Assembly (NCBI GenBank): GCA_963576565.1
Contig: OY755040.1
Location: 27,675,203 to 27,739,202, forward strand
DNA length: 64,000 nt
Reading direction: 5' to 3'
Origin: Aspidapion aeneum
Lineage: Eukaryota; Arthropoda; Insecta; Coleoptera; Brentidae
Numbering within the stretch: position 1 is the stretch's first letter; each line of letters opens with the position of its first letter. The notes under the pieces were generated by a model. It did no database searches. It saw only the letters and a list, made by a program, of their open reading frames with translations, and was not told where the DNA came from. Of the stretch, positions 20,291 to 64,000 are shown piece after piece. Made by a program: the position numbers and the translations under genes.

Positions 20291-20511
20291 CCAATAAAAA
20301 AGGAAGTGCTCATGAAATGCTAGAGACTTGGCAACCTGCCGAATTACCCGAAGATCAGACAGCGATAGATACAAGGTGGATTTTTAAAATTAAAGAGGAT
20401 GGAAGAAAGAAAGCTCGCCTAGTTGCGAAAGGATTTCAGGTACCATTCAATTCTGGGGACGAATTTATTTACGCTCCTGTCTGCCGTTTATCGACAATCA
20501 GAATTTTATTA
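20281..20511 (+). pseudogene. Copia reverse transcriptase, first part
   Basis: TWQPAELPEDQTAIDTRWIF, then ARLVAKGFQ and APVCRLSTIRILL match the start of the copia RT fingers (W-x-L, K-x-R-W-x-F-K, RLVAKGF, the V-x-R-x-S-T-I-R box). The coding match stops after codon TTA at 20511 and resumes at 21320 with SVFVQKDWNLHQIDV. Confidence 0.88.
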
Positions 20512-21319: not shown

Positions 21320-22020
21320 TCTGTGTTTGTACAAAAAGATTGGAATTTACATCAGATAGACGTCCCTACAGCATTTTTAAACGGGATGTTAGATAATGAC
21401 ATTTATATAAATAAACCAGAAGGACTGAAAATAAATTCAAAATATCTGAAACTAAACCGTGCATTATATGGGCTAAGAAATGCACCAAAATGCTGGAACA
21501 TAAAATTTAACGAAGTTATGGAAAAATTTAAATTTAAAAGATCTGAATATGATTATTACCTTTATCAAAACAACAATGTTTACTTGTTGTTGTTTGTTGA
21601 TGACGCATTAATAACAGGACCAGAAAGTGAGGTTCAAAAATTACTAAAGAATCTCTACAAAGAGTTTAAAGTCAAGAATATGACTAAAGTAAAAATATTT
21701 TTGAGAATGGAAATCAACAAATCAGAAAAAAGTCTAAAAATAACTCAAACAAAAATGATAAATAGACTGCTTGATGAATTTGGAATGATAGAATCTAAAA
21801 ATATTTTAACACCAATGGAAGTAAACTTTAATTTCAAAGAAACAGAACCAATAATTGACAACGTACCATACAGAAGACTCATATGCAGTTTGATGTATCT
21901 ATCACTTATAAGTCGACCAGATATATCGTACAGTGTTGCATATTCAAGCAGATTTTTGGATAAGCCAAGAAAAAGCAAGGGAAGCTGGCAAACGAATTCT
22001 ACGTTATTTGAATCATACAA
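21320..22020 (+). pseudogene. Copia reverse transcriptase, second part
   Basis: LHQIDVPTAFLNG contains the first catalytic Asp of copia RT, followed by ALYGLRNAPKCW and LLFVDDALITG, the second and third catalytic Asp (VDD). The region ends with SLMYLSLISRPDISYSVAY, the conserved segment leading to RNase H. All three polymerase carboxylates are present, but the frame shifts near 21980 and the N-terminal part is separated by the nested insertion. Confidence 0.92.
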
Positions 22021-22498
22021 AAGAATTTGGACCACATTTTAAGAAGGGGAATATGGATGAACTGATTGGATTATGTGATGCTGATTGGGGAGGAGATCGT
22101 GAAACCAGAAAAAGTGTAAGCGATTTTATATGTTTGCATGCTGGAAACCCCATAGCATGGCACTCTAGAAAACAAAACTGTGTTGCACAATCGTCGATGG
22201 AAGCAGAATATATCGCTGCCGGTGTAGCATGTCAAGAATTCTGAGTGAATTCTGAAAAAGCGAACCAGTGATTCTCAAAATTGATAACCTAAGTGCAATT
22301 TCTTTAATAAATAATTTTGAAAATTCTAAACGTGCAAAGCATATTGACATTAAATACCATTTCATAAAAGACTTATGTTTGCGAAAAGAAATAATTTTAA
22401 AATATATTCCATCTAACGAAAATGCATCAGACGTATTTACTAAGTCGTTGGATAAGGAAAAATTTTTAAGATTTAGATTAAGTATTTTAAATGTGTGA
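21980..22498 (+). pseudogene. Copia RNase H, frameshifted
   Basis: In the frame of 21933-22244: AGKRILRYLNHTKEFG, LCDADWGGD with the first catalytic Asp, and SSMEAEYIAAGVACQE with the catalytic Glu. A stop at 22242 separates this from 22268-22498: IDNLSAISLINN with the next Asp, HIDIKYHFIKD and NASDVFTKSL, the conserved end of copia RNase H. This domain removes RNA from the RNA-DNA hybrid. It ends 63 bases before the purine tract. Confidence 0.9.
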
Positions 22499-39917: not shown

Positions 39918-40446
39918 GCGTTTTTGACACACTTCCCATTATCCGATTTGGATGAAATTTGGTAAACGCATAGTGGCCCCATGATAATACAACATTAAGA
40001 AAAAATATCCTCCCACCCCTACCCCCACCCCTTTTACAGAAAAATGTGTTTTTGACACACTTCCCGTTATCTAATTTGGATAAAATTTGGTATACACATA
40101 GCGGTACAATAATAATACAACAATAAGAAAAAAATATCCTCCCACCCCTACACCCACCCCCTTCCATAGAAAATGCGTTTTTGACACCCTTCCCATTATC
40201 CGATTTGGATGCAATTTGGTATACATATAGTGGTTCGATGACAATAGAACAATAAGAAAAAAAATGTCCTCCCACCCCTATCCCCACCCCCTTCCATAAA
40301 AAAATGCGTTTTTGACACACTTCACTTCAAATGACTTTTATTAAATTTGGTATATGCATAAAGGTCCGATGGCAATACAGCCCAAACAAAAAATATATTT
40401 CTAACTCTACCCCCACCCTCCCCCCACCCCAATAGAAAAATGAGTT
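39918..40446. repeat. Four-copy minisatellite, unit 128-131 bp
   Basis: Units begin with TTTTTGACACACTTCCC at 39921, 40049, 40178 and 40309, each followed by GATTTGGATGAAATTTGGTA and a C-rich CCCACCCCTACCCCCACCCC block. The last copy is the most diverged. The minus strand stays open over three units, giving a repetitive Gly-rich 138-residue frame that I regard as a by-product of the repeat. Confidence 0.92.
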
Positions 40447-43200: not shown

Positions 43201-43673
43201 ACTCCATGCTATATCAAACTTGAAAATAGTTTTTTGTAAATAACTCCGTAGCGAAAGCTCCTACAAAGTTTTTCATTATAACACAAAATTAAAAAAAATT
43301 TGCTTTACTATATTCTAAGAACCGCATATTGATACGATGCTCCGTTAAAAAGTTAGCATTTATAAAAAAATTTAACTGTCAAAAAACTGTCATTAGCTCG
43401 TTACAGTATCGAACACTATTTTATCTAAAAATTTCATGCAAATCTATTTAGCGGTTTGGGAGCTATCGTATTACGGACAGACACACACACACACAGACAG
43501 ACATCACGACGATTTTGCTAAAATAGGTCAAAATACACCCAAATAATACATTTTCGGCATTATTTATACCAAATATAAATTTCGTCAAAAACAATACCTT
43601 CTCTAGCCATTGCTGCGCGGGCTAGAAAGGTAAAAATAATTGCACAATCTCAAATTTTTATCGAGATTTTAAC
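43201..43673. other. Unrecognised repeat-like sequence left of the palindrome
   Basis: A short AC run (43482-43497) follows AGCGGTTTGGGAGCTATCGT, a context seen in dispersed insect repeats. No gene. It ends at the left boundary of the giant palindrome. Confidence 0.4.
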
Positions 43674-45191
43674 ACTCCCCCACCGAAAGTCTTATATACG
43701 TAGAAGTCTAAAACAAAACCACTTTCATCTGTTTTACTCAGGCTAATTTTATTTAACGACCATACGTACCTGGTAGCGTAATGTCTAATTTTTCCTGAAA
43801 TACGAAAAGTTGCGGCGGTAAGAGAATTACAAGTGCTATTTTTAGATTCTTTTAGTTTTAGTCAAAATAAAAGATATTTTTATTAAACATACCAAAAACA
43901 AAGTTTAATCTAAATAACTTTTTAAATGACTACTATAAAAAATAAGGTTTGCGCACGGCAAACATTGCGCAAAACCTTTTGCACACCGTTATGTCATCTG
44001 CTCACACGCTTCTTTAATTTACTCTGTGATTTACTCATCATCACGTACGTCTTAAATATATCTGTACTGCTAAAGCCTATTAAAACCATTCAAGAAAATT
44101 ACTGCCACAAGCGTTCCGCTATATTGGATTCAATTGAACGCAAACTTAGGGCTTGAATTAAAAAAGCAAACGCTTTCAATAAGATTTGAAAGAATCTGCT
44201 TTCAAATGACATTGACAAATTGTCAATGCGGTGATTTGACGTAGTAAAAATTGGGAATAATAATTTATTTTTTATTTAAAGTTTTTTGATTTTTGGAACA
44301 TTTGACAAAGATATTATCCCGAATTAATGTAGCTGCTTACTTGGCTTGTGTTTAAACAAATTAAAAGGTATTTATCCTAGGGTAACTGATAATGGGTGTT
44401 TAGGAGATGGCACTAAGAGCGCGGCATCCATTATCAGTACTCTGAATTTAATCCAGTTATACGTTCGGGTTCATTTGAAATTCAACATGCCGGCACGCTT
44501 GTAGCAGTTATTTTTTTAGAGGCCCTTTCCCAGTACATATATATATTTAAGACGCACGTGTTTACTGTATTTGATTGTGCCATATCTAAGTCAAAATGTG
44601 GACTATTGCAGGTGCGCTGAGATCCACAGCAAACGTCATCGCTTTGCTGTTTTGTTGACTAGCTAGATACGTCAAAAAAGTGTTTTAATATTTTACCTCG
44701 TATTTTCCGAATTTTTTTATAATAAATGATATCAATTGCGATTGGTGTTTCTTATTTGTATTTGTAGGGAAAGCATAGTAAAAAACTTGTTTAAAAACCT
44801 CAATGCACACTTGCTCGACTTGTGGACCTAATCTTGGTTGTGCGCAATGAGTCGTTTTTAAAGCTTGTTGATTAATATACTAGTTTGCAAATAAACAATA
44901 AATTGCAATAACTTAAAGCTACTATTAAAAAACAAAGTTTATTTTTCATAGGTTTAAGATATCGATGCATCATGAAAACACAAACAAATTATACAAACTA
45001 AAACGCTCATCGAAAAATATTTCCCGTCTGACGTTTTCATCAAAAATTTTTAATTGGCTTAATTGGCCAGGCCCGTGTGCGCAAACATCACTGCTAAAAT
45101 TCTAGTTAGTTTTTAAACAATTTTTAATCAAACATTTTTAGGGCAAAGGGTTTTATTTGATGATTTTGTTTACGTTTCCTTTATATAGTGT

Positions 45192-45376
45192 TAACAGTGG
45201 CGCACCCACTAATATGTCTTGGGGGGGCCCGTAGCCTCTGAGGGGGGCCCGAGGGCTCATGATGTCGTATTTCATGCAATTTTTTGTGTTTATTTATGAA
45301 TTATGTAGAAAATATCTACAAAAAACTTAGGCTTGGGGGGGCTCCCCACCCCCTTCCCCTGGGTGGACTCATGTTG
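45192..45376. mobile_element. hAT-like MITE in left palindrome arm
   Basis: It starts CAGTGGCGCACCCACTAATA followed by TGTCTTGGGGGGG and ends near CCCCTGGGTGGACTC. It is the same family as 32850-33045. G and C runs lie close to both ends. Confidence 0.55.
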
Positions 45377-46699
45377 CTAATTATTTATAAGTCTTAATGC
45401 TATAATTGTGTGTTGTTTTGAAACTGGTATTAAATAATGTTATATATCCTAAAGTAATTTTTAAGGAATGAAATTTTAAAAAAATGCTCGCCTATTACCA
45501 CAAGGTATTTTAGAAAAAACAACTTTAGACTTTTTAATATACAAACCCCTCTTTTATAAAAATTATGCTATCTATACAGTTTATCCACTTAAATTTGCAC
45601 CATATCGGATTTTTTTTAGTATTTTTTTAGTACTCAGAGTCCGTTATGACCTGAAACCCACCATGCAACAATCAGATATACAAAATATATAGGACCTATC
45701 TAGTATAAATTTAATAATTTTTAAGAATCCTTTTTGACAGTTATCAGCTGGCTTGCATAACAAAAAAAAAAGTTGTCTCAAAAATTGTGTAATGAATTGT
45801 ACAAGTAATATAGAATATTATGAAATTTGCAAAATCTAAATAACGTACGTCTGTGGAGAGGATCGGCTCTTCTGTTTGTTGCCAGTTGTGTTGGCTATTC
45901 TCGGGTGTTAGTTCGAAATTATAGGATGTAAATAATAAATATATTCTATCGGATTTTGATGATATCTCCACTGTCCTTCTTCTGCGAGGTCGAAATCGTA
46001 ATTAACATAAAGTAAGTATACACCTAACCGTTGTTAATTCGTCGCAAATGTAACCCAACCATGGTCATTTGATCTCAAAAATATCCTAACCGGGGCGCGC
46101 CTGGACAGAATAGGATGCGTTTGCCATCAGCTGGCGGATAGGCTAACACCGATTTCGTTCCTTCAAAAAGAGTTATGAGGAGCTATAATTAAAAAAAAAT
46201 ACGAAAAAAATTTAATTACTTCCAAAAAATACGTCATACGTGTGAACCGAACCCACCATTCCAAAAAACAATTATTCAAAAAATTCTTTCCAATACGTTG
46301 ATGGAGTATTTATATGCATCGTTTATTTACATTAGACTGTTTGTTTTAAAATCGTATTTTACGTATTTCTTATTCTACTATTTACAATATATAAATTGAA
46401 ATTAACACAAGTTCTTAAAAAATTACGATAGATATATGTCCAGGGCATACACCTTAGTTCTTTGAGTCAAGTCTTGTATCTGTCTGTGCTTCATTTTCGG
46501 TGTTTTATTTGACCTATGTGGATGTTTTATGTCAGTGTTTTGTACTATGTAATAGAATATTTTTTCAAACATCCTTTAGAATTTCTGATCGTCGTCTAAG
46601 TGTATGTCGACCGTAAAATTTGCCAGTTTGTTGTTGCAGAAAAACCTCAGGTTAAAAATTGCTTTAATAAGTCATCAATGTTTGGTTTGTTAAAAGTTT

Positions 46700-47845
46700 G
46701 TGTGTCGGGTTTACTGGTACCCTCGACGCTGCCTGTTTCCCTGGTTCTCACCGGCTCGTGCGGTCAGTCGCAGGGCGCGACTGAGCGGATTCAAAAGGCT
46801 GTAATTAATTGAGTATAGTCGTCTTTTTATTTTTGTGCTGGTTGACCGGTAGTCGATGGTAAAAGGGTTTACTTTGTAACAGACCGAATTGGAGTTCCAG
46901 GAGCATATGGGCATCTATAAATTGTAATGTGGTAGCTTGTTTTGTAAGAAGTCTTGTAGAGCTAAAAATTTCTCTACTTTGTCTGTTAGTGGTCTTAATG
47001 TCGCGTTAAGGTATCTGAGGGCTCTTATTGCTTCGTTAAAGTTAATTAGTGAGTTTAGGTCATTAAATTCGTTCTGTAGTGTCGTCAATTGCGCTAGCGG
47101 AGGTTCGCTGCCTCTGGTTGGTCTTGTTCTAATATCTTGATTTGCATGTGAGTTTCTAGTAAGTCTGGTTGCTTGCTGTATGGCTTCTCCTCTTTGCGCC
47201 CTATACATTGTTTGTCGGTATACGCGTTGGTATGTACTGGGGCGTTTTCGTTGACGGTCGTCGATTTTCTTGTGGTATGCGTAGCTTTCCTAGAAATACA
47301 GGGCACTCTAGGTTACAGGACGTGTGACTCTCTCCGCAATTGCAGCATTTTGCTTCGGTGTTATTTGGCTTTATGCAAAATTTTGTTTCGTGACCTTCTG
47401 CGCATTTAACGCAGCGTGATTCTCGGAAGTAGTTATTAAGCGAATGGCCCTATATTTGGCAATGCCGACATTGAATCATTTCCCTTTGTAGCTTTCGTAG
47501 GGTGCTGCCTTTTCCTGTTATTACCGTATACAGTGGCCTGTATTGGGTTTTCATTTGGTATACTTTTTGTACTGAGATGCCCTGTTATCTTAGTTCTTCA
47601 GCTGTGCAAGCTTCTGCACCTATGGTTTATAGTCCACGTAGTACAAAAGCATTCGTTTTTTTATTGGAAGCTGTGTATGTATGGAATCTAGTTGTCGAGT
47701 CCTGGAGCAGCCTTTTTTGTTTTAGGGTGTCCCTGTATTTAATGTATCCTTCCCGATCTTTAATGTTAAGCTGCGTATTGTTTAGTGTATATTTGATATT
47801 CAATAACTTTTTGACAGTTTTAATGATTTTCTTCGATTATTAATT
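46700..47845 (-). pseudogene. Jockey-type ORF1 (Gag-like) remnant, left arm
   Basis: Mirror image of 56656-57801 in the right arm, where the domains are described. It carries the same stops and frameshifts apart from a few substitutions, so the two share one history of decay before the duplication. Confidence 0.82.
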
Positions 47846-48102
47846 ACATTAGACGGGTAGGTATCTATTGCAGATACAGTTACAAATTTGGATTAATTAC
47901 AACAAGTATATGAAGTTATTTTGTACCGAAAATTAACCGAGAAATATTTAAAGGCTTGGCAACTGCCGCCATCTCTTGGGAACCCTTGCAACTCATGCTA
48001 TCTGATGCACTGTTGTCATTTTTGAGGAGCCGACCCTCTCCACACCCACAGCCGCAGCCGCAGCCACAAATTCCTTTATTTGTTGTAATATCGAAAATGT
48101 TG

Positions 48103-48453
48103 TACAACATAGCGCAGGCCATAATAGCGCAGGTTATAAAATAATATAATAAAATAAAAAAAAACCTTCCTGACTTCTTTTCCGAGATTCTAGGGGGTGT
48201 GAATCCAAACCGAACCGAACCAAATCGAACCGAACACCCTCTAGAATCCCGGGAAAGAAATCAGGATTTTTTTTTTTTTAATATGTTGTTTGGGTTCGGT
48301 TCGGTTCGGATTTATACTCTCTAGAATCCCGGGAAAAAAAGTCATTCGCTACTTTGGGGATCCGCTATTTAATGCATGCGCTATTTTGGCCATGGTCTAT
48401 TCTGGGCATGCGCTATTATGGCCTGCGCTATAATTGCCTGCGCTATGTTGTCC
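48103..48453. mobile_element. MITE with ACAACATAGCGCAGG ends, left arm
   Basis: The left terminus ACAACATAGCGCAGGCCATA is mirrored at the right by GCCTGCGCTATGTTGT, with further GCGCTAT units inside the right end (about 48390-48440). Between them lie repeated CCGAACCGAACC and its complement and three TCTAGAATCCCGGG-like blocks. About 350 bp, non-coding. Confidence 0.75.
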
Positions 48454-49659
48454 CACTGCCATATAAAAATTATATTTCTTCTGATTTTACATACAGTATA
48501 TCTCCTTCCTTTTGGTTTTTAATTAAGTTTAATTAAATTATACTATTTCTAAGTTGAAAACAAACTAAATCGACTAGATTTTGTTTGTTTGTTTGGTTAG
48601 TTTAAAAAAATTGTTAAATAATTTTAAAGATATCCGTTTATCCAAAATTAAGCTTCTACACCCCAAAGCACTGAATGATCCTACAAAAAGGCCGTGTTTA
48701 AAACGGAAAATAAAAATTGTATAATAACTATGTACCTCGCATCTGGATTTTATTTTGGTAAATTTGGCTGGAAAATTATATTTATTTTTTATTTAATCCT
48801 CACTAACAATATAAGAAGCTAGTAGAATTACAAAAATAGTTTTATTAGCAAAATCGAAACATTTAGTTCCTGGGCTTTTTGATGAAGATTTCAGAACACC
48901 TATTTTAATCGATTTCCAATGATTCCACCAACACTGCCTGACCTGCTAACAGACCCAAAATCATCTCAGTCAAAAAGTAAGGTTAGGGTGTCAAAATATT
49001 TTTTCAACTTTCAAAAATTATTAATAAAAAAAAGGCTTTTGTTTCAATTTGATTTTTAAATGTTAATTACAAAAAATTACTTCTATTTTTTTTTCAATTC
49101 AAGATTTTGAATCCACCGCATAAATAGCTTTGGTGGCTCGGTGCGATTGCGCTTTGATACAAGTGAATTAAGAATCTCGCTTGATACCGTGGCTTGTTCA
49201 AATCCCGTCGTTTGCCAAGGTCGGGTGTTGCAGACATTTATAGGATTTTCTGGGAAATGTAAAATATAATTTAGTCCTACCCCTTTATTCACGCCGGTAA
49301 CAAGGGCGGATGAGGTTGGATATCTTGTGAAGGTCCTTTGTTACATACTCCTTTAGAACAGTAGGACATTCCAAAGGACAAAAGGACTGGTAAAAAAGTA
49401 ATACACGGTCCGGGGTTCCAAAGATGACTGATGACTCTTGCAATTGGGCTTCCGATAGATAGCCTTAGCCTCGGCAAAAAAGTCATGTTATTAAATTTAA
49501 AAAAAAATTAGTCCCCTTAAATAAATTTACCAAATCTGTCTACTGGGATATCAAACCTCGTATTGTTTTATTCATGAGTCATATTTAACTATAAAGTTAC
49601 AATAGTATATTACATAACAAAAAAAGTGACAAATTTCACACGAGCGTGAATGTTGTGAA

Positions 49660-50661
49660 CGAGGCGCTAGAAACTGCTTTTCCCTACATATGTGGAAAAG
49701 TACTTTGCAACACTTGTACGGAAAAGTATGGTGATAGTTAACGTCATCGTACCCTTTTCCATACACGTGCAGAAAAGTATATTTTCAAACATGTACGGAA
49801 AAATATCTGCACACGGGTAAAATACAGTTTTGTAAGGATACAAATCGTGATACAGTTTTCTGAGGATGCAAATCGTGTAAAATACATCATCTTCATATGT
49901 GGTCGTAGGAAATAGTAGTTTACCTAACTAGTGCGGAAAGTGCCTCTTTTCCGCACGCGATTGCAGATGGCCAAATGACGCGATAGCAGAGTTTGGCCAG
50001 CAATCAAGTGCGGAAAAGACACTTTACGCACGAGTTAGGTACACTATTTTTTCTATAAGCGTGAGGAAAAAACTAAAAATTAATCAGAAAATTATTTATA
50101 TTCAAAACGTTTTAATCAAATCAATTATTATTATTCACATTCTAGCGGCTTCTAGAACTGACTGGGGTAGATCTTCGTCCGAAGAATCCATTGAAAATCT
50201 GATTTTTTTGTTTGAAAAATTAAAAAGACGCTTGTATCTGCAAAATTGGCTTTGTTTTGACAGTTTGTTTGTACTTTGTTGCTATGGTGATTTAAGATGC
50301 CAAATCTAAAACCACTAGTGTTCATTGTTGTTTGACATTGACAATGACGATATTTATACCGGGGAGGTTTAAAACTTATAATTTGAACCTATTTTACTGA
50401 AAACTTTATTTTATCGAAAATATTGAAAATATAGCAGAATTTTAGTCAATTTGAATATTTTTAGGATATTTCGTGTGCTAGGAAAGATACAAATGTATTT
50501 TGAACGGTCTAAATGTTATAGAACACCTCAAAATCGTAACAAATTTACTTTTCCGCACTAGTGAGGAAAAAATATTTTTCCGCACTAGTGCGGAAAAGTG
50601 GCACTTTCCACATTAAAATGCGTGCGGAAAAGTGGACTTTTCCGCACGCTTATAGAAAAAA
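49660..50661. mobile_element. Cluster of GTGCGGAAAAG repeats with two foldbacks, left arm
   Basis: The motif GTGCGGAAAAG or its complement recurs more than ten times. One small foldback spans about 49915-50046 (TTACCTAACTAGTGCGGAAAG and CTTTACGCACGAGTTAGGTA). A larger one spans 50047-50661, with ends TTTTTTCTATAAGCGTG and CGCACGCTTATAGAAAAAA. A frame of 82 residues (50061-50309) has no known motif. Confidence 0.75.
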
Positions 50662-51001
50662 ACTTTTATTTTTACCAATAATAGTCAGTCTTTCACTTAA
50701 ATAAAACTCTGTTTTTGTTTAATTAAGACAGAGTCAATTGCCATCCGTTTTCAATTTGTTGCGATGAGTTCATTCATTAAATTCGGAACAGCAAATTGTT
50801 AAATTATTTGTTTCTATATCGGTTGGATTCCAAAATAACTTCTTATTATGTGGACAATTTTAGTGTTTAGTAGTAGAATTTTCTTGGGTGGCGGAACAAA
50901 GATCGGAAAACAAAAGATCGAAAGACAAAAGATCGAATACAAAAGATCAAAAAACAGCTCTACAATAAACCCCATATCAAAGATGTTTAACAGAGAAGCT
51001 A

Positions 51002-51640
51002 TACAGGGTGTCCTAGAACTAATGGTACATAGTTAAACTGTAGATTCCCTGGGTCAAAATATTACGATTTAGCCATACTTACTTTAGTCCAAAAGTGCGT
51101 ACTAACCGAGATACAGGGTGTTAAACTTTATTTTTTCAATTCGATTTTTATTAATAACTTTTTTACTAATTCATATTTTTGCAAAAAATGACCAGCGTGT
51201 AAGTTTTTTTTAAATTGGCAAGACGATTCCGTTGAAAATTTTAATGTACATCGTACAGGGTGTTCCCTGGACCACTAGCATTGCATTAAAATCAGTGCCT
51301 TTTTTTTTGCCTCGGTGTATACCAGTTTTTATGTAAAATAGTGGTTTTCCCATCCTTTTTATGTAAAAAAGTTGTACAGTTTTAAAGTGGCTCAGAGCAA
51401 CCGTTTTTGAAATTTTAGCATTTATAGTTTTTATTGCATGTGAGTGATATGCCTAATTTATGTATGATAATTTCTTCAATTCATTCTACTAATTAATATT
51501 TTTGCAAAAACTAACCAGCATGTAGGTTTTTATAAAATTTGCAAGACGATTCCATTGAAAAATTTGATGTACAATGTACAGGGTGTTCTTTGGACCACTA
51601 CCATTGCATTAAAATCATGAGTGTACTTTTTTGTGCCTAG
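51002..51640. mobile_element. TACAGGGTGT repeat element, family 2, left arm
   Basis: It starts TATACAGGGTGTCCTAGAAC. TACAGGGTGT-like units follow at about 51113, 51255 and 51578. The stretch from GCAAGACGATTCC through ACAGGGTGTTC to TTGCCTCGGTGTATAC is present twice, about 320 bp apart. A reverse-oriented longer copy lies at 62845-63717. Confidence 0.75.
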
Positions 51641-51773
51641 GTGTATACTTAAGCAGGTTTTTAAAGAGAATATTATTTTAATTATTAAATAATTATTAAT
51701 AACAAAAAAAAAATAAAACCAATTATACACGTTTTATTGCAACAACAAATTTTTAGATAGAAAAACAAAAAAT

Positions 51774-51923
51774 CTACAATAAATGTTCGAAATGGCCACC
51801 GTTAACCTGAATAGATTTGTTTATTCACTTAATATACGAACGTCTGATTTTAAAATGAGGATTTGCATTTCTGAACGCCTCTACAGCATTTCGAATTTTT
51901 TGAAATAGTTTTTCTCGGGTATT
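51774..51923 (-). pseudogene. Tc1/mariner-type transposase C-terminus, left arm
   Basis: The minus strand encodes EKLFQKIRNAVEAFRNANPH, then after an in-frame stop SIQVNGGHFEHLL followed by a stop codon. NGGHFEHLL at the extreme C-terminus is shared by many insect Tc1/mariner-superfamily transposases. No DDE catalytic region is present. It is mirrored at 52586-52735. Confidence 0.7.
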
Positions 51924-52148
51924 TATCTAGCTTACAATAATAAACAGTTTTAGGTTTGATTTACTATTTGTCATTGATTTACTATTTGTCAATGTTAAAA
52001 TTTTAGCTTGGTTGCTGAGAGCGCCATGCTTAAGAAATTTTATATTTTTTTAAAGAAATAATAAAATATTAATTTTATTGATAATTAAAATTTTCTTTCA
52101 AAACAATAAAAAAATGTTAAATACCAAATTGCAAGTAATGCAAGGACC

Positions 52149-52352
52149 TAAAACTATAAACAACAAATGAAATTAAAGAAAGAAAAATAAGAAAAAAGTT
52201 TGCTGCTTCGCCGGGGATCGAACCCGGGATCTCTTGCTATCTAGGCAGTGGTAGAATGTTTGCCTAGATGGCAAGAGATCCCGGGTTCGATCCCCGGCCG
52301 AAGCAGAAAACTTTTTTCTTATTTTTCTTTCTTTAATTTCATTTGTTGTTTA
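52149..52352. repeat. Palindromic tRNA-derived element at the centre of the palindrome
   Basis: A 204-bp near-perfect palindrome. The outer arms run from TAAAACTATAAACAACAAAT through AAATTAAAGAAAGAAAAATA and AAAAAAGTTT; the inner arms are a tRNA 3' half in inverted duplicate; the loop is 13 bases. The second copy (60826-61030) is identical over nearly its whole length, one base longer in the left acceptor region. At the outer edges here the palindrome simply continues into the giant arms. Confidence 0.93.
52248..52305 (+). pseudogene. tRNA-Gly-like 3' part within the palindrome
   Basis: GTGGTAGAATG matches the D-loop region of eukaryotic tRNA-Gly. It is followed by an anticodon stem TTTGC/GCAAG with loop CTAGATG (AGA in the anticodon position), a perfect T stem CCGGG/CCCGG around TTCGATC (B box GGTTCGATCCC), and the acceptor strand CCGAAGC with A as base 73. 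The first 14 bases of a tRNA-Gly, including the 5' acceptor strand and most of the A box, are missing; in their place is the inverted copy of the 3' half. A normal cloverleaf cannot form. Confidence 0.75.
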
Positions 52353-52585
52353 TAGTTTTAGGTCCTTGCATTACTTGCAATTTGGTATTTAATATTTTTT
52401 TATTGTTTTGAAAGAAAATTTTAATTATCAATAAAATTAATATTTTATTATTTCTTTAAAAAAATATAAAATTTCTTAAGCATGGCGCTCTCAGCAACCA
52501 AGCTAAAATTTTAACATTGACAAATAGTAAATCAATGACAAATAGTAAATCAAACCTAAAACTGTTTATTATTGTAAGCTAGATA

Positions 52586-52735
52586 AATACCCGAGAAAAA
52601 CTATTTCAAAAAATTCGAAATGCTGTAGAGGCGTTCAGAAATGCAAATCCTCATTTTAAAATCAGACGTTCGTATATTAAGTGAATAAACAAATGTATTC
52701 AGGTTAACGGTGGCCATTTCGAACATTTATTGTAG
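52586..52735 (+). pseudogene. Tc1/mariner-type transposase C-terminus, right arm
   Basis: Mirror of 51774-51923; ends in NGGHFEHLL followed by TAG at 52733. One substitution separates the two copies near the internal stop. Confidence 0.7.
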
Positions 52736-52867
52736 ATTTTTTGTTTTTCTATCTAAAAATTTGTTGTTGCAATAAAACGTGTATAATTGGTTTTATTTTT
52801 TTTTGTTATTAATAATTATTTAATAATTAAAATAATATTCTCTTTAAAAACCTGCTTAAGTATACAC

Positions 52868-53506
52868 CTAGGCACAAAAAAGTACACTCATGATTTTAAT
52901 GCAATGGTAGTGGTCCAAAGAACACCCTGTACATTGTACATCAAATTTTTCAATGGAATCGTCTTGCAAATTTTATAAAAACCTACATGCTGGTTAGTTT
53001 TTGCAAAAATATTAATTAGTAGAATGAATTGAAGAAATTATCATACATAAATTAGGCATATCACTCACATGCAATAAAAACTATAAATGCTAAAATTTCA
53101 AAAACGGTTGCTCTGAGCCACTTTAAAACTGTACAACTTTTTTACATAAAAAGGATGGGAAAACCACTATTTTACATAAAAACTGGTATACACCGAGGCA
53201 AAAAAAAAGGCACTGATTTTAATGCAATGCTAGTGGTCCAGGGAACACCCTGTACGATGTACATTAAAATTTTCAACGGAATCGTCTTGCCAATTTAAAA
53301 AAAACTTACACGCTGGTCATTTTTTGCAAAAATATGAATTAGTAAAAAAGTTATTAATAAAAATCGAATTGAAAAAATAAAGTTTAACACCCTGTATCTC
53401 GGTTAGTACGCACTTTTGGACTAAAGTAAGTATGGCTAAATCGTAATATTTTGACCCAGGGAATCTACAGTTTAACTATGTACCATTAGTTCTAGGACAC
53501 CCTGTA
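52868..53506. mobile_element. Family 2 repeat element, right arm
   Basis: Mirror of 51002-51640; ends with AGGACACCCTGTATA at about 53506. Confidence 0.75.
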
Positions 53507-53846
53507 TAGCTTCTCTGTCAAACATCTTTGATATGGGGTTTATTGTAGAGCTGTTTTTTGATCTTTTGTATTCGATCTTTTGTCTTTCGATCTTTTGTTT
53601 TCCGATCTTTGTTCCGCCACCCAAGAAAATTCTACTACTAAACACTAAAATTGTCCACATAATAAGAAGTTATTTTGGAATCCAACCGATATAGAAACAA
53701 ATAATTTAACAATTTGCTGTTCCGAATTTAATGAATGAACTCATCGCAACAAATTGAAAACGGATGGCAATTGACTCTGTCTTAATTAAACAAAAACAGA
53801 GTTTTATTTAAGTGAAAGACTGACTATTATTGGTAAAAATAAAAGT

Positions 53847-54848
53847 TTTTTTCTATAAGCGTGCGGAAAAGTCCACTTTTCCGCACGCATTTTAATGTGG
53901 AAAGTGCCACTTTTCCGCACTAGTGCGGAAAAATATTTTTTCCTCACTAGTGCGGAAAAGTAAATTTGTTACGATTTTGAGGTGTTCTATAACATTTAGA
54001 CCGTTCAAAATACATTTGTATCTTTCCTAGCACACGAAATATCCTAAAAATATTCAAATTGACTAAAATTCTGCTATATTTTCAATATTTTCGATAAAAT
54101 AAAGTTTTCAGTAAAATAGGTTCAAATTATAAGTTTTAAACCTCCCCGGTATAAATATCGTCATTGTCAATGTCAAACAACAATGAACACTAGTGGTTTT
54201 AGATTTGGCATCTTAAATCACCATAGCAACAAAGTACAAACAAACTGTCAAAACAAAGCCAATTTTGCAGATACAAGCGTCTTTTTAATTTTTCAAACAA
54301 AAAAATCAGATTTTCAATGGATTCTTCGGACGAAGATCTACCCCAGTCAGTTCTAGAAGCCGCTAGAATGTGAATAATAATAATTGATTTGATTAAAACG
54401 TTTTGAATATAAATAATTTTCTGATTAATTTTTAGTTTTTTCCTCACGCTTATAGAAAAAATAGTGTACCTAACTCGTGCGTAAAGTGTCTTTTCCGCAC
54501 TTGATTGCTGGCCAAACTCTGCTATCGCGTCATTTGGCCATCTGCAATCGCGTGCGGAAAAGAGGCACTTTCCGCACTAGTTAGGTAAACTACTATTTCC
54601 TACGACTACATATGAAGATGATGTATTTTACACGATTTGCATCCTCAGAAAACTGTATCACGATTTGTATCCTTACAAAACTGTATTTTACCCGTGTGCA
54701 GATATTTTTCCGTACATGTTTGAAAATATACTTTTCTGCACGTGTATGGAAAAGGGTACGATGACGTTAACTATCACCATACTTTTCCGTACAAGTGTTG
54801 CAAAGTACTTTTCCACATATGTAGGGAAAAGCAGTTTCTAGCGCCTCG
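53847..54848. mobile_element. GTGCGGAAAAG repeat cluster, right arm
   Basis: Mirror of 49660-50661, with the same two foldbacks in opposite orientation. Confidence 0.75.
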
Positions 54849-56054
54849 TTCACAACATTCACGCTCGTGTGAAATTTGTCACTTTTTTTGTTATGTAATA
54901 TACTATTGTAACTTTATAGTTAAATATGACTCATGAATAAAACAATACGAGGTTTGATATCCCAGTAGACAGATTTGGTAAATTTATTTAAGGGGACTAA
55001 TTTTTTTTTAAATTTAATAACATGACTTTTTTGCCGAGGCTAAGGCTATCTATCGGAAGCCCAATTGCAAGAGTCATCAGTCATCTTTGGAACCCCGGAC
55101 CGTGTATTACTTTTTTACCAGTCCTTTTGTCCTTTGGAATGTCCTACTGTTCTAAAGGAGTATGTAACAAAGGACCTTCACAAGATATCCAACCTCATTC
55201 GCCCTTGTTACCGGCGTGAATAAAGGGGTAGGACTAAATTATATTTTACATTTCCCAGAAAATCCTATAAATGTCTGCAACACCCGACCTTGGCAAACGA
55301 CGGGATTTGAACAAGCCACGGTATCAAGCGAGATTCTTAATTCACTTGTATCAAAGCGCAATCGCACCGAGCCACCAAAGCTATTTATGCGGTGGATTCA
55401 AAATCTTGAATTGAAAAAAAAATAGAAGTAATTTTTTGTAATTAACATTTAAAAATCAAATTGAAACAAAAGCCTTTTTTTTATTAATAATTTTTGAAAG
55501 TTGAAAAAATATTTTGACACCCTAACCTTACTTTTTGACTGAGATGATTTTGGGTCTGTTAGCAGGTCAGGCAGTGTTGGTGGAATCATTGGAAATCGAT
55601 TAAAATAGGTGTTCTGAAATCTTCATCAAAAAGCCCACGAACTAAATGTTTCGATTTTGCTAATAAAACTATTTTTGTAATTCTACTAGCTTCTTATATT
55701 GTTAGTGAGGATTAAATAAAAAATAAATATAATTTTCCAGCCAAATTTACCAAAATAAAATCCAGACGCGAGGTACATAGTTATTATACAATTTTTATTT
55801 TCCGTTTTAAACACGGCCTTTTTGTAGGATCATTCAGTGCTTTGGGGTGTAGAAGCTTAATTTTGGATAAACGGATATCTTTAAAATTATTTAACAATTT
55901 TTTTAAACTAACCAAACAAACAAACAAAATCTAGTCGATTTAGTTTGTTTTCAACTTAGAAATAGTATAATTTAATTAAACTTAATTAAAAACCAAAAGG
56001 AAGGAGATATACTGTATGTAAAATCAGAAGAAATATAATTTTTATATGGCAGTG

Positions 56055-56405
56055 GGACAACATAGCGCAGGCAATTATAGCGCAGGCCATAATAGCGCAT
56101 GCCCAGAATAGACCATGGCCAAAATAGCGCATGCATTAAATAGCGGATCCCCAAAGTAGCGAATGACTTTTTTTCCCGGGATTCTAGAGAGTATAAATCC
56201 GAACCGAACCGAACCCAAACAACATATTAAAAAAAAAAAATCCTGATTTCTTTCCCGGGATTCTAGAGGGTGTTCGGTTCGATTTGGTTCGGTTCGGTTT
56301 GGATTCACACCCCCTAGAATCTCGGAAAAGAAGTCAGGAAGGTTTTTTTTTATTTTATTATATTATTTTATAACCTGCGCTATTATGGCCTGCGCTATGT
56401 TGTAC
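56055..56405. mobile_element. MITE with ACAACATAGCGCAGG ends, right arm
   Basis: Mirror of 48103-48453. The adjacent CAGCCG hexamer repeat (about 56445) is one unit shorter than in the left arm. Confidence 0.75.
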
Positions 56406-56655
56406 AACATTTTCGATATTACAACAAATAAAGGAATTTGTGGCTGCGGCTGTGGGTGTGGAGAGGGTCGGCTCCTCAAAAATGACAACAGTGCATCAGA
56501 TAGCATGAGTTGCAAGGGTTCCCAAGAGATGGCGGCAGTTGCCAAGCCTTTAAATATTTCTCGGTTAATTTTCGGTACAAAATAACTTCATATACTTGTT
56601 GTAATTAATCCAAATTTGTAACTGTATCTGCAATAGATACCTACCCGTCTAATGT

Positions 56656-57801
56656 AATTAATAATCGAAGAAAATCATTAAAACTGTCAAAAAGTTATTG
56701 AATATCAAATATACACTAAACAATACGCAGCTTAACATTAAAGATCGGGAAGGATACATTAAATACAGGGACACCCTAAAACAAAAAAGGCTGCTCCAGG
56801 ACTCGACAACTAGATTCCATACATACACAGCTTCCAATAAAAAAACGAATGCTTTTGTACTACGTGGACTATAAACCATAGGTGCAGAAGCTTGCACAGC
56901 TGAAGAACTAAGATAACAGGGCATCTCAGTTCAAAAAGTATACCAAATGAAAACCCAATACAGGCCACTGTATACGGTAATAACAGGAAAAGGCAGCACC
57001 CTACGAAAGCTACAAAGGGAAATGATTCAATGTCGGCATTGCCAAATATAGGGCCATTCGCTTAATAACTGCTTCCGAGAATCACGCTGCGTTAAATGCG
57101 CAGAAGGTCACGAAACAAAATTTTGCATAAAGCCAAATAACACCGAAGCAAAATGCTGCAATTGCGGAGAGAGTCACACGTCCTGTAACCTAGAGTGCCC
57201 TGTATTTCTAGGAAAGCTACGCATACCACAAGAAAATCGACGACCGTCAACGAAAACGCCCCAGTACATACCAACGCGTATACCGACAAACAATGTATAG
57301 GGCGCAAAGAGGAGAAGCCATACAGCAAGCAACCAGACTTACTAGAAACTCACATGCAAATCAAGATATTAGAACAAGACCAACCAGAGGCAGCGAACCT
57401 CCGCTAGCGCAATTGACGACACTACAGAACGAATTTAATGACCTAAACTCACTAATTAACTTTAACGAAGCAATAAGAGCCCTCAGATACCTTAACGCGA
57501 CATTAAGACCACTAACAGACAAAGTAGAGAAATTTTTAGCTCTACAAGACTTCTTACAAAACAAGCTACCACATTACAATTTATAGATGCCCATATGCTC
57601 CTGGAACTCCAATTCGGTCTGTTACAAAGTAAACCCTTTTACCATCGACTACCGGTCAACCAGCACAAAAATAAAAAGACGACTATACTCAATTAATTAC
57701 AGCCTTTTGAATCCGCTCAGTCGCGCCCTGCGACTGACCGCACGAGCCGGTGAGAACCAGGGAAACAGGCAGCGTCGAGGGTACCAGTAAACCCGACACA
57801 C
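56656..57801 (+). pseudogene. Jockey-type ORF1 (Gag-like) remnant, right arm
   Basis: Plus-strand frames give TNAFVLRGL then GISVQKVYQMKTQYRPLYTV, a domain typically found before the zinc knuckles in Jockey ORF1. Three CCHC knuckles follow: CRHCQI-stop-GHSLNNC, CVKCAEGHETKFC and CCNCGESHTSCNLEC (57027-57200). After a frame change comes the C-terminal region (57293-57586) with FNDLNSLINFNEAIRALRYL. ORF1 protein coats the element RNA. Directly after the stop, CSWNSNSV (from 57593) looks like the first strand of the ORF2 endonuclease, after which homology ends. Stops near 56875, 56915 and 57050 and one frameshift inactivate it. Confidence 0.85.
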
Positions 57802-59123
57802 AAACTTTTAACAAACCAAACATTGATGACTTATTAAAGCAATTTTTAACCTGAGGTTTTTCTGCAACAACAAACTGGCAAATTTTACGGTCGACATACA
57901 CTTAGACGACGATCAGAAATTCTAAAGGATGTTTGAAAAAATATTCTATTACATAGTACAAAACACTGACATAAAACATCCACATAGGTCAAATAAAACA
58001 CCGAAAATGAAGCACAGACAGATACAAGACTTGACTCAAAGAACTAAGGTGTATGCCCTGGACATATATCTATCGTAATTTTTTAAGAACTTGTGTTAAT
58101 TTCAATTTATATATTGTAAATAGTAGAATAAGAAATACGTAAAATACGATTTTAAAACAAACAGTCTAATGTAAATAAACGATGCATATAAATACTCCAT
58201 CAACGTATTGGAAAGAATTTTTTGAATAATTGTTTTTTGGAATGGTGGGTTCGGTTCACACGTATGACGTATTTTTTGGAAGTAATTAAATTTTTTTCGT
58301 ATTTTTTTTTAATTATAGCTCCTCATAACTCTTTTTGAAGGAACGAAATCGGTGTTAGCCTATCCGCCAGCTGATGGCAAACGCATCCTATTCTGTCCAG
58401 GCGCGCCCCGGTTAGGATATTTTTGAGATCAAATGACCATGGTTGGGTTACATTTGCGACGAATTAACAACGGTTAGGTTATACTTACTTTATGTTAATT
58501 ACGATTTCGACCTCGCAGAAGAAGGACAGTGGAGATATCATCAAAATCCGATAGAATATATTTATTATTTACATCCTATAATTTCGAACTAACACCCGAG
58601 AATAGCCAACACAACTGGCAACAAACAGAAGAGCCGATCCTCTCCACAGACGTACGTTATTTAGATTTTGCAAATTTCATAATATTCTATATTACTTGTA
58701 CAATTCATTACACAATTTTTGAGACAACTTTTTTTTTTGTTATGCAAGCCAGCTGATAACTGTCAAAAAGGATTCTTAAAAATTATTAAATTTATACTAG
58801 ATAGGTCCTATATATTTTGTATATCTGATTGTTGCATGGTGGGTTTCAGGTCATAACGGACTCTGAGTACTAAAAAAATACTAAAAAAAATCCGATATGG
58901 TGCAAATTTAAGTGGATAAACTGTATAGATAGCATAATTTTTATAAAAGAGGGGTTTGTATATTAAAAAGTCTAAAGTTGTTTTTTCTAAAATACCTTGT
59001 GGTAATAGGCGAGCATTTTTTTAAAATTTCATTCCTTAAAAATTACTTTAGGATATATAACATTATTTAATACCACTTTCAAAACAACACACAATTATAG
59101 CATTAAGACTTATAAATAATTAG

Positions 59124-59308
59124 CAACATGAGTCCACCCAGGGGAAGGGGGTGGGGAGCCCCCCCAAGCCTAAGTTTTTTGTAGATATTTTCTACATAAT
59201 TCATAAATAAACACAAAAAATTGCATGAAATACGACATCATGAGCCCTCGGGCCCCCCTCAGAGGCTACGGGCCCCCCCAAGACATATTAGTGGGTGCGC
59301 CACTGTTA
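59124..59308. mobile_element. hAT-like MITE in right palindrome arm
   Basis: Mirror of 45192-45376. Confidence 0.55.
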
Positions 59309-60825
59309 ACACTATATAAAGGAAACGTAAACAAAATCATCAAATAAAACCCTTTGCCCTAAAAATGTTTGATTAAAAATTGTTTAAAAACTAACTAGAA
59401 TTTTAGCAGTGATGTTTGCGCACACGGGCCTGGCCAATTAAGCCAATTAAAAATTTTTGATGAAAACGTCAGACGGGAAATATTTTTCGATGAGCGTTTT
59501 AGTTTGTATAATTTGTTTGTGTTTTCATGATGCATCGATATCTTAAACCTATGAAAAATAAACTTTGTTTTTTAATAGTAGCTTTAAGTTATTGCAATTT
59601 ATTGTTTATTTGCAAACTAGTATATTAATCAACAAGCTTTAAAAACGACTCATTGCGCACAACCAAGATTAGGTCCACAAGTCGAGCAAGTGTGCATTGA
59701 GGTTTTTAAACAAGTTTTTTACTATGCTTTCCCTACAAATACAAATAAGAAACACCAATCGCAATTGATATCATTTATTATAAAAAAATTCGGAAAATAC
59801 GAGGTAAAATATTAAAACACTTTTTTGACGTATCTAGCTAGTCAACAAAACAGCAAAGCGATGACGTTTGCTGTGGATCTCAGCGCACCTGCAATAGTCC
59901 ACATTTTGACTTAGATATGGCACAATCAAATACAGTAAACACGTGCGTCTTAAATATATATATGTACTGGGAAAGGGCCTCTAAAAAAATAACTGCTACA
60001 AGCGTGCCGGCATGTTGAATTTCAAATGAACCCGAACGTATAACTGGATTAAATTCAGAGTACTGATAATGGATGCCGCGCTCTTAGTGCCATCTCCTAA
60101 ACACCCATTATCAGTTACCCTAGGATAAATACCTTTTAATTTGTTTAAACACAAGCCAAGTAAGCAGCTACATTAATTCGGGATAATATCTTTGTCAAAT
60201 GTTCCAAAAATCAAAAAACTTTAAATAAAAAATAAATTATTATTCCCAATTTTTACTACGTCAAATCACCGCATTGACAATTTGTCAATGTCATTTGAAA
60301 GCAGATTCTTTCAAATCTTATTGAAAGCGTTTGCTTTTTTAATTCAAGCCCTAAGTTTGCGTTCAATTGAATCCAATATAGCGGAACGCTTGTGGCAGTA
60401 ATTTTCTTGAATGGTTTTAATAGGCTTTAGCAGTACAGATATATTTAAGACGTACGTGATGATGAGTAAATCACAGAGTAAATTAAAGAAGCGTGTGAGC
60501 AGATGACATAACGGTGTGCAAAAGGTTTTGCGCAATGTTTGCCGTGCGCAAACCTTATTTTTTATAGTAGTCATTTAAAAAGTTATTTAGATTAAACTTT
60601 GTTTTTGGTATGTTTAATAAAAATATCTTTTATTTTGACTAAAACTAAAAGAATCTAAAAATAGCACTTGTAATTCTCTTACCGCCGCAACTTTTCGTAT
60701 TTCAGGAAAAATTAGACATTACGCTACCAGGTACGTATGGTCGTTAAATAAAATTAGCCTGAGTAAAACAGATGAAAGTGGTTTTGTTATAGACTTCTAC
60801 GTATATAAGACTTTCGGTGGGGGAG

Positions 60826-61030
60826 TAAAACTATAAACAACAAATGAAATTAAAGAAAGAAAAATAAGAAAAAAGTTTGCTGCTTCGGCCGGGGATCGAA
60901 CCCGGGATCTCTTGCTATCTAGGCAGTGGTAGAATGTTTGCCTAGATGGCAAGAGATCCCGGGTTCGATCCCCGGCCGAAGCAGAAAACTTTTTTCTTAT
61001 TTTTCTTTCTTTAATTTCATTTGTTGTTTA
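60826..61030. repeat. Palindromic tRNA-derived element, second close copy
   Basis: Matches 52149-52352 from TAAAACTATAAAC to TTGTTGTTTA, with hairpin centre at 60932. It has the fully paired GCTTCGGCC/GGCCGAAGC stem where the central copy lacks one base. Its left edge coincides with the exact end of the giant palindrome; its right edge runs into unrelated A-rich sequence. Confidence 0.93.
60926..60983 (+). pseudogene. tRNA-Gly-like 3' part, second copy
   Basis: Same sequence as 52248-52305, including the intact T arm and acceptor 3' strand. It lacks a tRNA 5' end. Confidence 0.72.
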
Positions 61031-61089
61031 ATAAAAAAATACTTGCAGTAATAAAGTATACCTACTTACCATTAAAAAAAAACTAATAC

Positions 61090-62818
61090 GAAGAGGTTTT
61101 TGTTCCTTATTAAAAACAAAGCCCTACCCAGTTGGAATACTCCAACACAAACCTAACAGTGCCAAATGGAAAAACTCCACCGTTCACTGAAAGGGTTTTC
61201 CACAGTATGCCAGAGGTACCCTTTTGTCACAGAGAAATAAAAAAGTTGAATACAAACAAAGCAATGGGTCCAGATGGCATTCCCGCTATAGTATTCAAAA
61301 ATTGTTCTAACGAACTCACCCCAACTTTCGCAAAATTATTCAATATATCTTATAGGCAAGGAGTATATCCATCATCATGGAAGTCTGCCGCACTACAACC
61401 CATTCCAAAGAAAGGAAAAAAGACAGATCCGTTAAATTATAGATCAATTGATCTACTTCCGGTGATATCAAAAGTAATGGAAAGAGTTGTGAACAATCAC
61501 CTAACCAAGTACTTGGAAAAGTACAAAATTATCAACGACAAGCAATACGGATTTCGAAAATATAGGTCAACTGGCGATTTACTACATACGTCACTCACTT
61601 ATGACAAAAAGCGATTGAGTTGCGAGGTGAAACAAGAACAATTGCCTTAGATATATCTAAAGCATTCGATAGAGTCTGGCATGAAAATCTGCTCAATAAG
61701 CTCAAAGCAACGGGATTGTCGCCGAAACTTTGCACTTGGTTTAAAAGTTACCTTAAGGATGATCCATTTATGTGGCACTGGATGGCCGGAACTCCAACTT
61801 TTACCAAATAAATGCTGGTGTGCCACAGGGAGCAATCCTTTCGCCAACACTTTTTCTGATCTACATAAATGACCTCATAGACAAAACAGCAAATCCACTT
61901 TATTGCTTTGCAGATGATGGTAATGTAGTCTCCTCATTCATACCACGCACATGTCTCTCCGCACGTGAATTCCATTACCTTAGACTAACTCAAATATCGC
62001 AGATAAATAACGACCTCGAGATAATAGAGGACTGGGGCAACAAAAACCTTGTACAGTTCAACACGCAGAAAACACAAGCAGCCCTGTTTTCAAAAAAGAC
62101 CAGCACCGGTGAGCCAAACATCATGCTATCTGGAAGTGCTGTCGCATTGCAGAGCCAGTTGAACATCTTAGGAGTCACTGCAGAGACCAACATGTCTTGG
62201 CACAGTCATGTAGCAGATATAGCTAAAGTATAGTAGTAACCAAAAGCTTGGGGTGCTATTTCGTACAAGACATCTCTATACACCAAGCCAACTGCTGACA
62301 CTCTACAAAGCCCAGATTCGACCAACTATGGAGTACTGCTCACATATATGGAGTGAGGCACCCAAACATACCTTAATGCTTTTGAACACCATGCAAAAAC
62401 GAGCTATCAAGCTGATCAATGACCCCGCACTTACCCGTAGCTTGGATAGTCTCGAACATCGAAGAACAGTGGGCGATCTATCTCTCTTCTACAGGTATTA
62501 TCACGGAAAATGCTCTGAAGAGTTGGCACGTATGATCCCCCCGGGAGTATCACCCACTAGGCGAGCACGTCAAACAGGCGGTAACCATCAATTTATTGTC
62601 AAAATAGAGGCACCAAGGACCTCATTATATCAGAATTCATCTCTCTGGAGAAGCATCGCTGTGGAAAAAACTCCCTGCGACAATTTTCCCTGCAGGTTAC
62701 AACCTGAACCGTTTCAAAACCAACACACACCAACATTTCCGCGAACTTGCCGCTCCTCGAGCGTGATAGGGACCTCTTTGCGAGTGCGCATATCCGAAAA
62801 AAAAAATAACGAACAATG
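61090..62818 (+). pseudogene. CR1/Jockey-like non-LTR reverse transcriptase, frameshifted
   Basis: A 5'-truncated RT begins about 60 bases after the palindromic element. Segment 61132-61650 has NTNKAMGPDGIPAIVFKNC, SSWKSAALQPIPKKGKKTDP and KQYGFRKYRSTGDL. After a frameshift near 61625, ALDISKAFDRVWH holds the first catalytic Asp. After another near 61790, GVPQGAILSPTLF and CFADDGNVV hold the catalytic DD. The thumb follows with LVQFNTQKTQAALFS, and after a stop at 62231 the C-terminal part has YTPSQLLTLYKAQIRPTMEY and HRRTVGDLSLFYRYYHGK. All catalytic residues are present, but at least three frame breaks inactivate it. It is followed by an ATAA-like 3' end near 62830. The minus-strand fragment at 4922-5480 is the same family. 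Confidence 0.9.
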
Positions 62819-62844
62819 ATAACACACTTATAATAATTCAAGAA

Positions 62845-63717
62845 CCACCCTGTATATTTTTTAACTTAATATTAAGAAATATTAATCCAATCTTAGAATG
62901 CCATAAAAAATATTGATTATGCAGAGCTAATATCTATGAAATAGGTAAGAATTTAATCAAAAATCTTTTACGCATACAATAAAAACCTCAATTTAAATAT
63001 CTTGAAAACCATTGCTCTAAGCGACATCTAAACGCTATAACTTTTTTACTTAAATAAAATTAAAAAATTAATGTTTTTAATAGAATCTTGTATACATCGA
63101 GGAACAAAAAAGTTAGACCTATATTAATGTAACGGTATCTACCCAGAGAACACCCTGTATAATATTTATTTTTTTTACCAAAATTAAGTTCCATGCCCAA
63201 AAACCACCAAACCTAATTTTTTGTGCAAAATTATTAATTAGTAGAAAGAATTGAAGAAAGTATCATAATATCACTCGCATGCAATAAAAACTTTAAATGC
63301 AAAAATCTCAAAAACCGTTGCTTTGAGCGACTTTAAAACAGTATAACTTTTTTACATAAAAAGGATGGGAAAACCACTATTTTACACAAAAACTGGTATA
63401 CACCGAGGCACAACAAAAATACACTGATTTTTATGCAATGGTAGTGGTCTAAGGAACACCCTGTACATTGTACATCAAATTTTTCAACGGAATCGTCTTG
63501 CAAATTTTAAAAAAATGTACACGCTGGTTAGCTTTTGCAAAAATATTAATTATTAATAAAGTTATTAAAGAAAATCGAATTGAAAAATAAAGTTTAACAC
63601 CCTGTATCTCGGTTAGTACGAACTTTTGGACTAAGGTAAGTTTGGCTAAATCGTAATATTTTGACCCAGGGAATCTACAGTTTAACTATGTACCATTAGT
63701 TCTGGGACACCCTGTAT
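62845..63717. mobile_element. Family 2 repeat element, reverse orientation
   Basis: Read on the minus strand it begins TATACAGGGTGTCCCAGAAC at 63717 and matches 51002-51640, then continues with another unit. ACCCTGTA-type motifs lie at about 62850, 63155, 63460, 63600 and 63708, spaced about 305, 305, 140 and 110 bp. It is therefore one roughly 310-bp unit longer than the copy in the palindrome. There is no coding capacity. Confidence 0.75.
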
Positions 63718-63784
63718 ATAAATATATTTTATAAAGTATTTGAAACTTATAATAGCCCTAACAATCTCTCTATTAAGCCTTTTT

Positions 63785-63930
63785 CGATCCATCTTTGGAC
63801 ATAGGCCTTCCCCAGTATCTTCCATGCTTCTCTATCTGTCGCCCTGTTCATCCATCTAGTTTCCGCATGTTTGTTTAAATCGTCCGCTCATCTTATTTGG
63901 GGTCTTCTCCTACTTCCTTTATTTTTTCAA
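63785..63930 (-). pseudogene. Non-LTR RT C-terminal tail
   Basis: The minus strand encodes RRRPQIR, WMNRATDREAWKILGKAYVQ and RWIEKG, matching the GRPxxRWxDD ... DRxxWRxLxEAYVQQW tail of a widespread insect non-LTR RT lineage. The sequence runs on towards the window edge without further recognisable domains. Confidence 0.7.
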
Positions 63931-64000
63931 GGTCTCCAGTTTACAAAACATTTATTATGTTATGACCGGCAAATTTCTATTTTAATTTTACTGCTTTATC

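Follow-up and report, generated by a model that had tools for sequence, protein, structure and literature searches.

A near-perfect palindrome of 17 kb lies at positions 43674–60826 of the window, as we call the whole 64,000-nucleotide stretch of DNA analysed here, and its sequence suggests that it is probably a real inverted duplication, when all readings that invoke a real event are taken together. Its centre is a discrete 204-bp element derived from a tRNA gene (P, 52149–52352), which is repeated in the same orientation at the right end of the palindrome (60826–61030), a repeat absent from the earlier note on this DNA. The explanation that we tentatively favour, as a good possibility rather than a probability, is an interstitial inverted duplication seeded by this tRNA-derived hairpin, in which a break at P would have been followed by hairpin-capped or fold-back copying and by end joining. 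The class of mechanism is already known; the present case would be a further member of it, likely real, with a clear seed and visible in unusual detail. The palindrome is probably a product of mutation, with a function of its own unlikely.

The near-perfect palindrome with a 13-nt loop claimed in the earlier note was confirmed by gapped self-alignment (99.67% identity). Self-BLAST returned the interval as one full-length inverted match (99.668% over 17,163 columns) with 37 mismatches and 10 gap openings, counts in which every difference between the arms is scored twice and the loop is included. This match places the left arm at 43674–52247 and the right arm at 52261–60826, separated by the loop GTGGTAGAATGTT (52248–52260, + strand), which the fold and a tRNA model applied to the right copy of P identify as part of a tRNA D-arm. 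When the whole span is compared without gaps, 8,314 of 17,153 positions match, a low figure because small indels shift the register. The order of blocks is flankL-A-P-A'-P-flankR, where A (43674–52148, + strand; inverted self-match and arm alignment) is the left-hand one of the two duplicated segments and measures 8,475 bp without the central element, and A' (52353–60826, − strand) is its inverted copy; the T that ends A' also begins the second P. The left outer junction, between flankL and A, is set by the end of the inverted match (43673/43674), and the right outer junction, between A' and P, by the junction contexts (60825/60826). Self-BLAST of the window identified no copy of P to the left of 43674, and the sequence past 61030 is unlike the arm. 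A gap-free scan of the 64-kb window for hairpins with loops of 0–20 nt gave just five sites, two of which are the copies of P, which argues that the palindrome did not arise by chance. The remaining three comprise a (TA)n run and one hairpin with 25-bp arms and a 3-nt loop, present once in each big arm (50547–50599 and 53909–53961).

In P the 3' part of a tRNA gene occurs twice, head to head and with T-rich 3' flanks, and a single stretch of D-arm serves both halves as the loop. Each copy folds into one long hairpin (−104.6 kcal/mol for the central, + strand copy and −109.3 kcal/mol for the second, also on the + strand; DNA parameters), with the stem at 52157–52352 in the central copy and at 60834–61030 in the right one, where 92-bp arms are separated by 13 nt. 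The right copy, which is supported by the self-match, the fold, the hairpin scan and the tRNA model, scored highest of the five scan sites, and the central copy only second because a 1-bp indel, the sole difference between the two in self-BLAST, interrupts its gap-free arm. Rightwards from the loop of the second copy, 60927–60983 matches positions 16–71 of the 71 positions of the Rfam tRNA model (E 1.1e-4), the 5' part being missing and the score of 28.3 bits falling below the gathering score of 29. This match was absent from a whole-window Rfam scan at E 1, and ARAGORN predicted 0 tRNA genes in the window; with the sub-gathering score and the cut 5' end, these results indicate that P holds no complete tRNA gene. 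P thus consists of a truncated tRNA present twice, head to head, and short of a complete cloverleaf; its tRNA body appears Gly-like. Eleven microRNA and IRES matches in Rfam (E up to 1) were rejected, all being below gathering scores and on inverted repeats.

The halves of P disagree at two places, identical in both copies: offset 10 (T/C) and offset 47 (G/T), counted from the loop (52238/52270 and 52202/52307 in the central copy). P would therefore already have been a hairpin, with slightly diverged halves, by the time of its doubling. The seed palindrome therefore appears to predate the large duplication, as judged from one sequence, and the earlier proposal of a pre-existing short palindrome at the centre is strengthened by a second copy with identical internal mismatches. 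The central P retains the right-half variants, which places the turn onto A' beyond offset 47, and matching between the arms of the right P ceases after offset 92. Together these limits put the turn within 52308–52352 (+ strand, offsets 48–92), a window of 45 bp over which the halves of P are exact inverted matches, and one that presumes no later conversion between the two copies.

The other junction has a different character. A' and the second P have 1 bp in common, an overlap often expected by chance, a TAAAA match on the flankL side is offset by 3 bp relative to this junction, and the two regions compared share no words of at least 9 bp. The junction sits 8 nt outside the base of the P stem, a closeness expected for ~0.2% of points placed uniformly over A plus P (a post hoc figure), from which we take the second junction to be tied to the hairpin. 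An ancestor with the order flankL-A-P-flankR would need the fewest steps, and one sequence does not polarise 43674 against 60826. Contiguity being equal at these two positions, the order of events may also be reversed, with P-A'-P-flankR already present, a fold-back at the left P adding the left part, and 43674 being the new join to flankL; this is very improbable, since a separate earlier event would be needed to put two copies of P around A'.

Outside the central element, A and A' differ over 8,475 bp by 11 substitutions and four indel events (arm alignment), the indels being of 1, 6, 1 and 1 bp, two of them in homopolymers and the one of 6 bp within a short repeat. Inside the central element the arms differ at three points. 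The substitution rate is 0.13% (95% interval 0.06–0.23%), low enough for the arms to be alleles, and the substitutions do not depart from an even spread (KS p 0.37, n 11). Six are transitions and five are transversions (left-arm positions 43711, 45424, 47570, 48870 and 51814), and all five of the latter are of complement type, that is A/T or C/G swaps, a pattern with a chance of 1 in 32. The 11 scattered substitutions and 4 indels resemble those of two old copies, in support of a break at P, whereas the complement-type transversions count against such a break and are odd in a way that favours artefacts generally.

Two readings had been offered in the earlier note, an inverted duplication, which fits, and a simple assembly join, which sits poorly with the 1 bp at 60826, the 45 bp at the turn and the mostly scattered substitutions between the arms. 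An overlap error by the assembler alone accounts poorly for the structure, and artefacts of all kinds, considered together, are a somewhat unlikely source of the palindrome. Among them, a fold-back read or a chimeric molecule, such as might arise when the whole genome of a small insect is amplified, which folded at P, jumped again and was then assembled, is decidedly unlikely. P would make an excellent hairpin for fold-back priming, and excerpts of two studies describe amplified DNA as yielding palindromic reads pervasively and false inverted duplications as having entered an assembly (PMC6218980, PMC13265396). Fold-backs account for ~0.55–0.6% of ONT genomic reads and ~10–20% of ONT direct-cDNA reads in the available text of PMC12870357, and they are all but absent from the PacBio HiFi reads that it describes (three PacBio samples), which speaks against such an origin. 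After a plain fold-back A' should also continue into flankL, yet it passes into P-flankR, and 11 scattered differing sites are not expected of a single molecule copied on itself. The arms are not identical and the right outer end repeats the centre, in contrast to a plain fold-back or amplification chimera; a chimera with two jumps, or mixed haplotypes, still fits. P reads near-identically on both strands, and an assembly mis-join there, between two haplotypes or between two contigs, could draw on the allele-like divergence of the arms and on P as a repeat where contigs could end. Such a mis-join is nevertheless improbable, as the turn offers 45 bp of exact inverted homology, which is short for a long-read overlap, and no overlap would choose the A'/P junction with its single common base. 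Given the chimera and two-haplotype readings, the caution already voiced over gene and copy-number calls across this block stands.

The arms contain little that is recognisable. A six-frame Pfam search of the left arm gave no family at cut-off (best E 0.0071, 17 bits against 22), four arm pieces searched singly gave no Pfam family at E 1, one piece searched for homologues at E 1e-3 had none, and open frames in the arm reach at most 125 codons. A gene in the arm was rejected on the shortness of these frames, the four Pfam-negative pieces and the one piece devoid of homologues. A transposon was likewise rejected, as P flanks the left copy on a single side and the left arm holds no Pfam family at cut-off, with the target-site pattern judged by eye. 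Reinsertion of an excised circle at P was set aside by reasoning rather than computation, the orientation of P relative to A' at 60826 being opposite to that expected from a simple A-P circle. A CCHC zinc-knuckle-like stretch was seen by eye at 47204–47449 (− strand) and has no Pfam match, and a dispersed repeat at ~89–90% identity is common to the arm (51000–51648) and the right flank (63219–63718). Directly right of the second P, 61031–64000 contains a broken RVT_1 reverse transcriptase across three + frames. Further left in the window are a 129-bp tandem repeat of ~3–4 copies (39918–40398), retrotransposon remnants with RNase H, integrase zinc-binding and integrase core pieces (2770–4745), and Copia-type remnants (12469–13137 and 19322–22042). 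One Copia piece (21296–22042) matched 565 proteins at E 1e-20; among the best 120 of these 565 the closest named were from the leaf beetle Gonioctena (P0006, P0013 and P0016, with 61%, 48% and 69% identity over 82%, 73% and 44% of the query, respectively), and the bug Nesidiocoris (P0009) matched at 48% over 79%. Although mobile elements mark taxa weakly, these relatives suggest an insect host, perhaps a beetle.

From the product, the turn window and the junction seen here we infer a break, copying and joining, in steps that would run as follows. A fold-back within a tRNA gene would have produced P as an interrupted palindrome of ~197 bp, and the ancestral flankL-A-P-flankR would then have broken at the base of the P hairpin or close to it. 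The left end may have folded on P and been extended, or been replicated as a hairpin-capped end, to give A-P-A'. A' would have stopped at the equivalent of 43674 and joined, with 1 bp in common, a P-flankR fragment that ended 8 nt outside the stem of P, giving A-P-A'-P-flankR as the final product. Such a break at P is favoured by the presence of P twice in one orientation, at the centre and at the right end, by the common half-to-half mismatches that would make the hairpin older than the doubling, and by the second junction 8 nt from the stem base. Published precedents favour it as well: in E. coli a 246-bp interrupted palindrome gives rise to inverted duplications (PMC3315005), and yeast shows fold-back copying close to breaks (PMC10622511, PMC7467729). 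Against it, yeast fold-back products, as far as the excerpts available describe them, are mostly terminal and rearranged further, in contrast to the neat interstitial block here. Excerpts of the bacterial and yeast literature also count against it as regards the way in which a hairpin with such a loop would break: E. coli genetics point to degradation and the formation of a hairpin rather than to cleavage of a cruciform (PMC3315005), and the yeast Mre11 complex attacks only loops of <9 nt, the loop here being 13 nt (PMC8053094). The latter source describes yeast breakage as dependent on spacer length, with resolution of cruciforms in G2 possible, and fold-back copying near breaks with flap trimming is reported from yeast (PMC10622511, PMC7467729). 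Lengthening the spacer of an Alu inverted repeat from 12 to 20 bp lowered recombination ~40-fold, according to the portion of PMC10164571 available, which places a 13-nt loop near the active end. A fuller version of the break at P, in which the base of the 197-bp tRNA fold-back hairpin was broken in the germline, the hairpin-capped copy and the P-keeping fragment were rejoined, and tRNA hairpins are recurrent seeds in the lineage, would be unlikely to hold in all its parts.

Template switching (MMBIR/FoSTeS) would yield the same product, with a nascent strand copying A and P, switching via the inverted homology of P, copying A backwards, and then, near 43674, switching again to where P begins and continuing into flankR. 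Many human inverted CNVs combine an inverted-repeat junction with a junction that shares 0–5 bp (in the text available of PMC10766186); here 1 bp, an overlap often due to chance, is in common, beside the offset TAAAA match. Template switching alone leaves re-entry 8 nt from the hairpin base unaccounted for, which a stalled fork at P could supply, and we regard it as an unlikely origin. An eroded inverted triplication (ODIRA), A-A'-A with the third A then lost, would accord with the proposal of the authors of PMC10766186, in the part available, that inverted duplications derive from such triplications, and a 5-bp inverted repeat with an 11-nt spacer lies just outside 43674 (43647–43667; noted by eye, and possibly due to chance). 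Self-BLAST detected two copies of A in the window and no further one, so that an inverted triplicated segment of the DUP-TRP/INV-DUP kind is not present there. A third A lost without trace is one step beyond need, making this origin extremely improbable.

If the palindrome is real, it provides a base-resolved interstitial inverted duplication in which a truncated tRNA is demonstrated as the seed, and survival of that seed as a second copy makes the prior state, the 45-bp turn window and the other junction readable. In a human survey, the text available of PMC10766186 counts 0 cases in which presumptive palindromic arms are unambiguously intact. If the palindrome is an artefact, it is a warning that a chimera can mimic a two-junction rearrangement.

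Among the matches listed in literature on tRNA and inverted repeats and on insect, moth and leaf-beetle palindromes, as far as their available text extends, none describes a giant palindrome seeded by a tRNA. The macro-palindromes of Tribolium satellites, as described in the excerpt of PMC13081366, are satellite arrays and hence a different thing. Closer is the 246-bp interrupted palindrome of E. coli, which likewise forms the precise midpoint of a large inverted duplication; that case concerns an engineered locus in mutants without SbcCD and RecA, in the part available of PMC3315005, whereas the present one is natural, interstitial and tRNA-derived and, unlike it, carries its seed again at one end. 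Yeast fold-back inversions similarly involve hairpin-primed copying at inverted repeats, those with loops of <15 nt forming a short-loop class, and the available portions of PMC7467729 and PMC10622511 describe products stabilised by further rearrangement such as telomere capture, whereas both outer flanks are in place here. Human DUP-TRP/INV-DUP and related inverted CNVs, in the excerpts of PMC10766186, also combine one inverted-repeat junction with another of little or no shared sequence; by comparison, the present structure has two copies of A rather than three, near-intact arms and a spacer of 13 nt. Human fold-back inverted duplications share inverted homology at the turn, with spacers of 766–70,466 bp in 21/21 sequenced junctions (in the text available of PMC3907307) as against 13 nt. 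In the springtail Folsomia candida, palindromes make up 11/15 of the within-scaffold blocks reported in the part available of PMC5490193 and are likewise inverted duplications inside an arthropod scaffold; those blocks are gene-bearing and collinear, whereas the 8.5 kb described here has no recognised protein domain and an identified seed.
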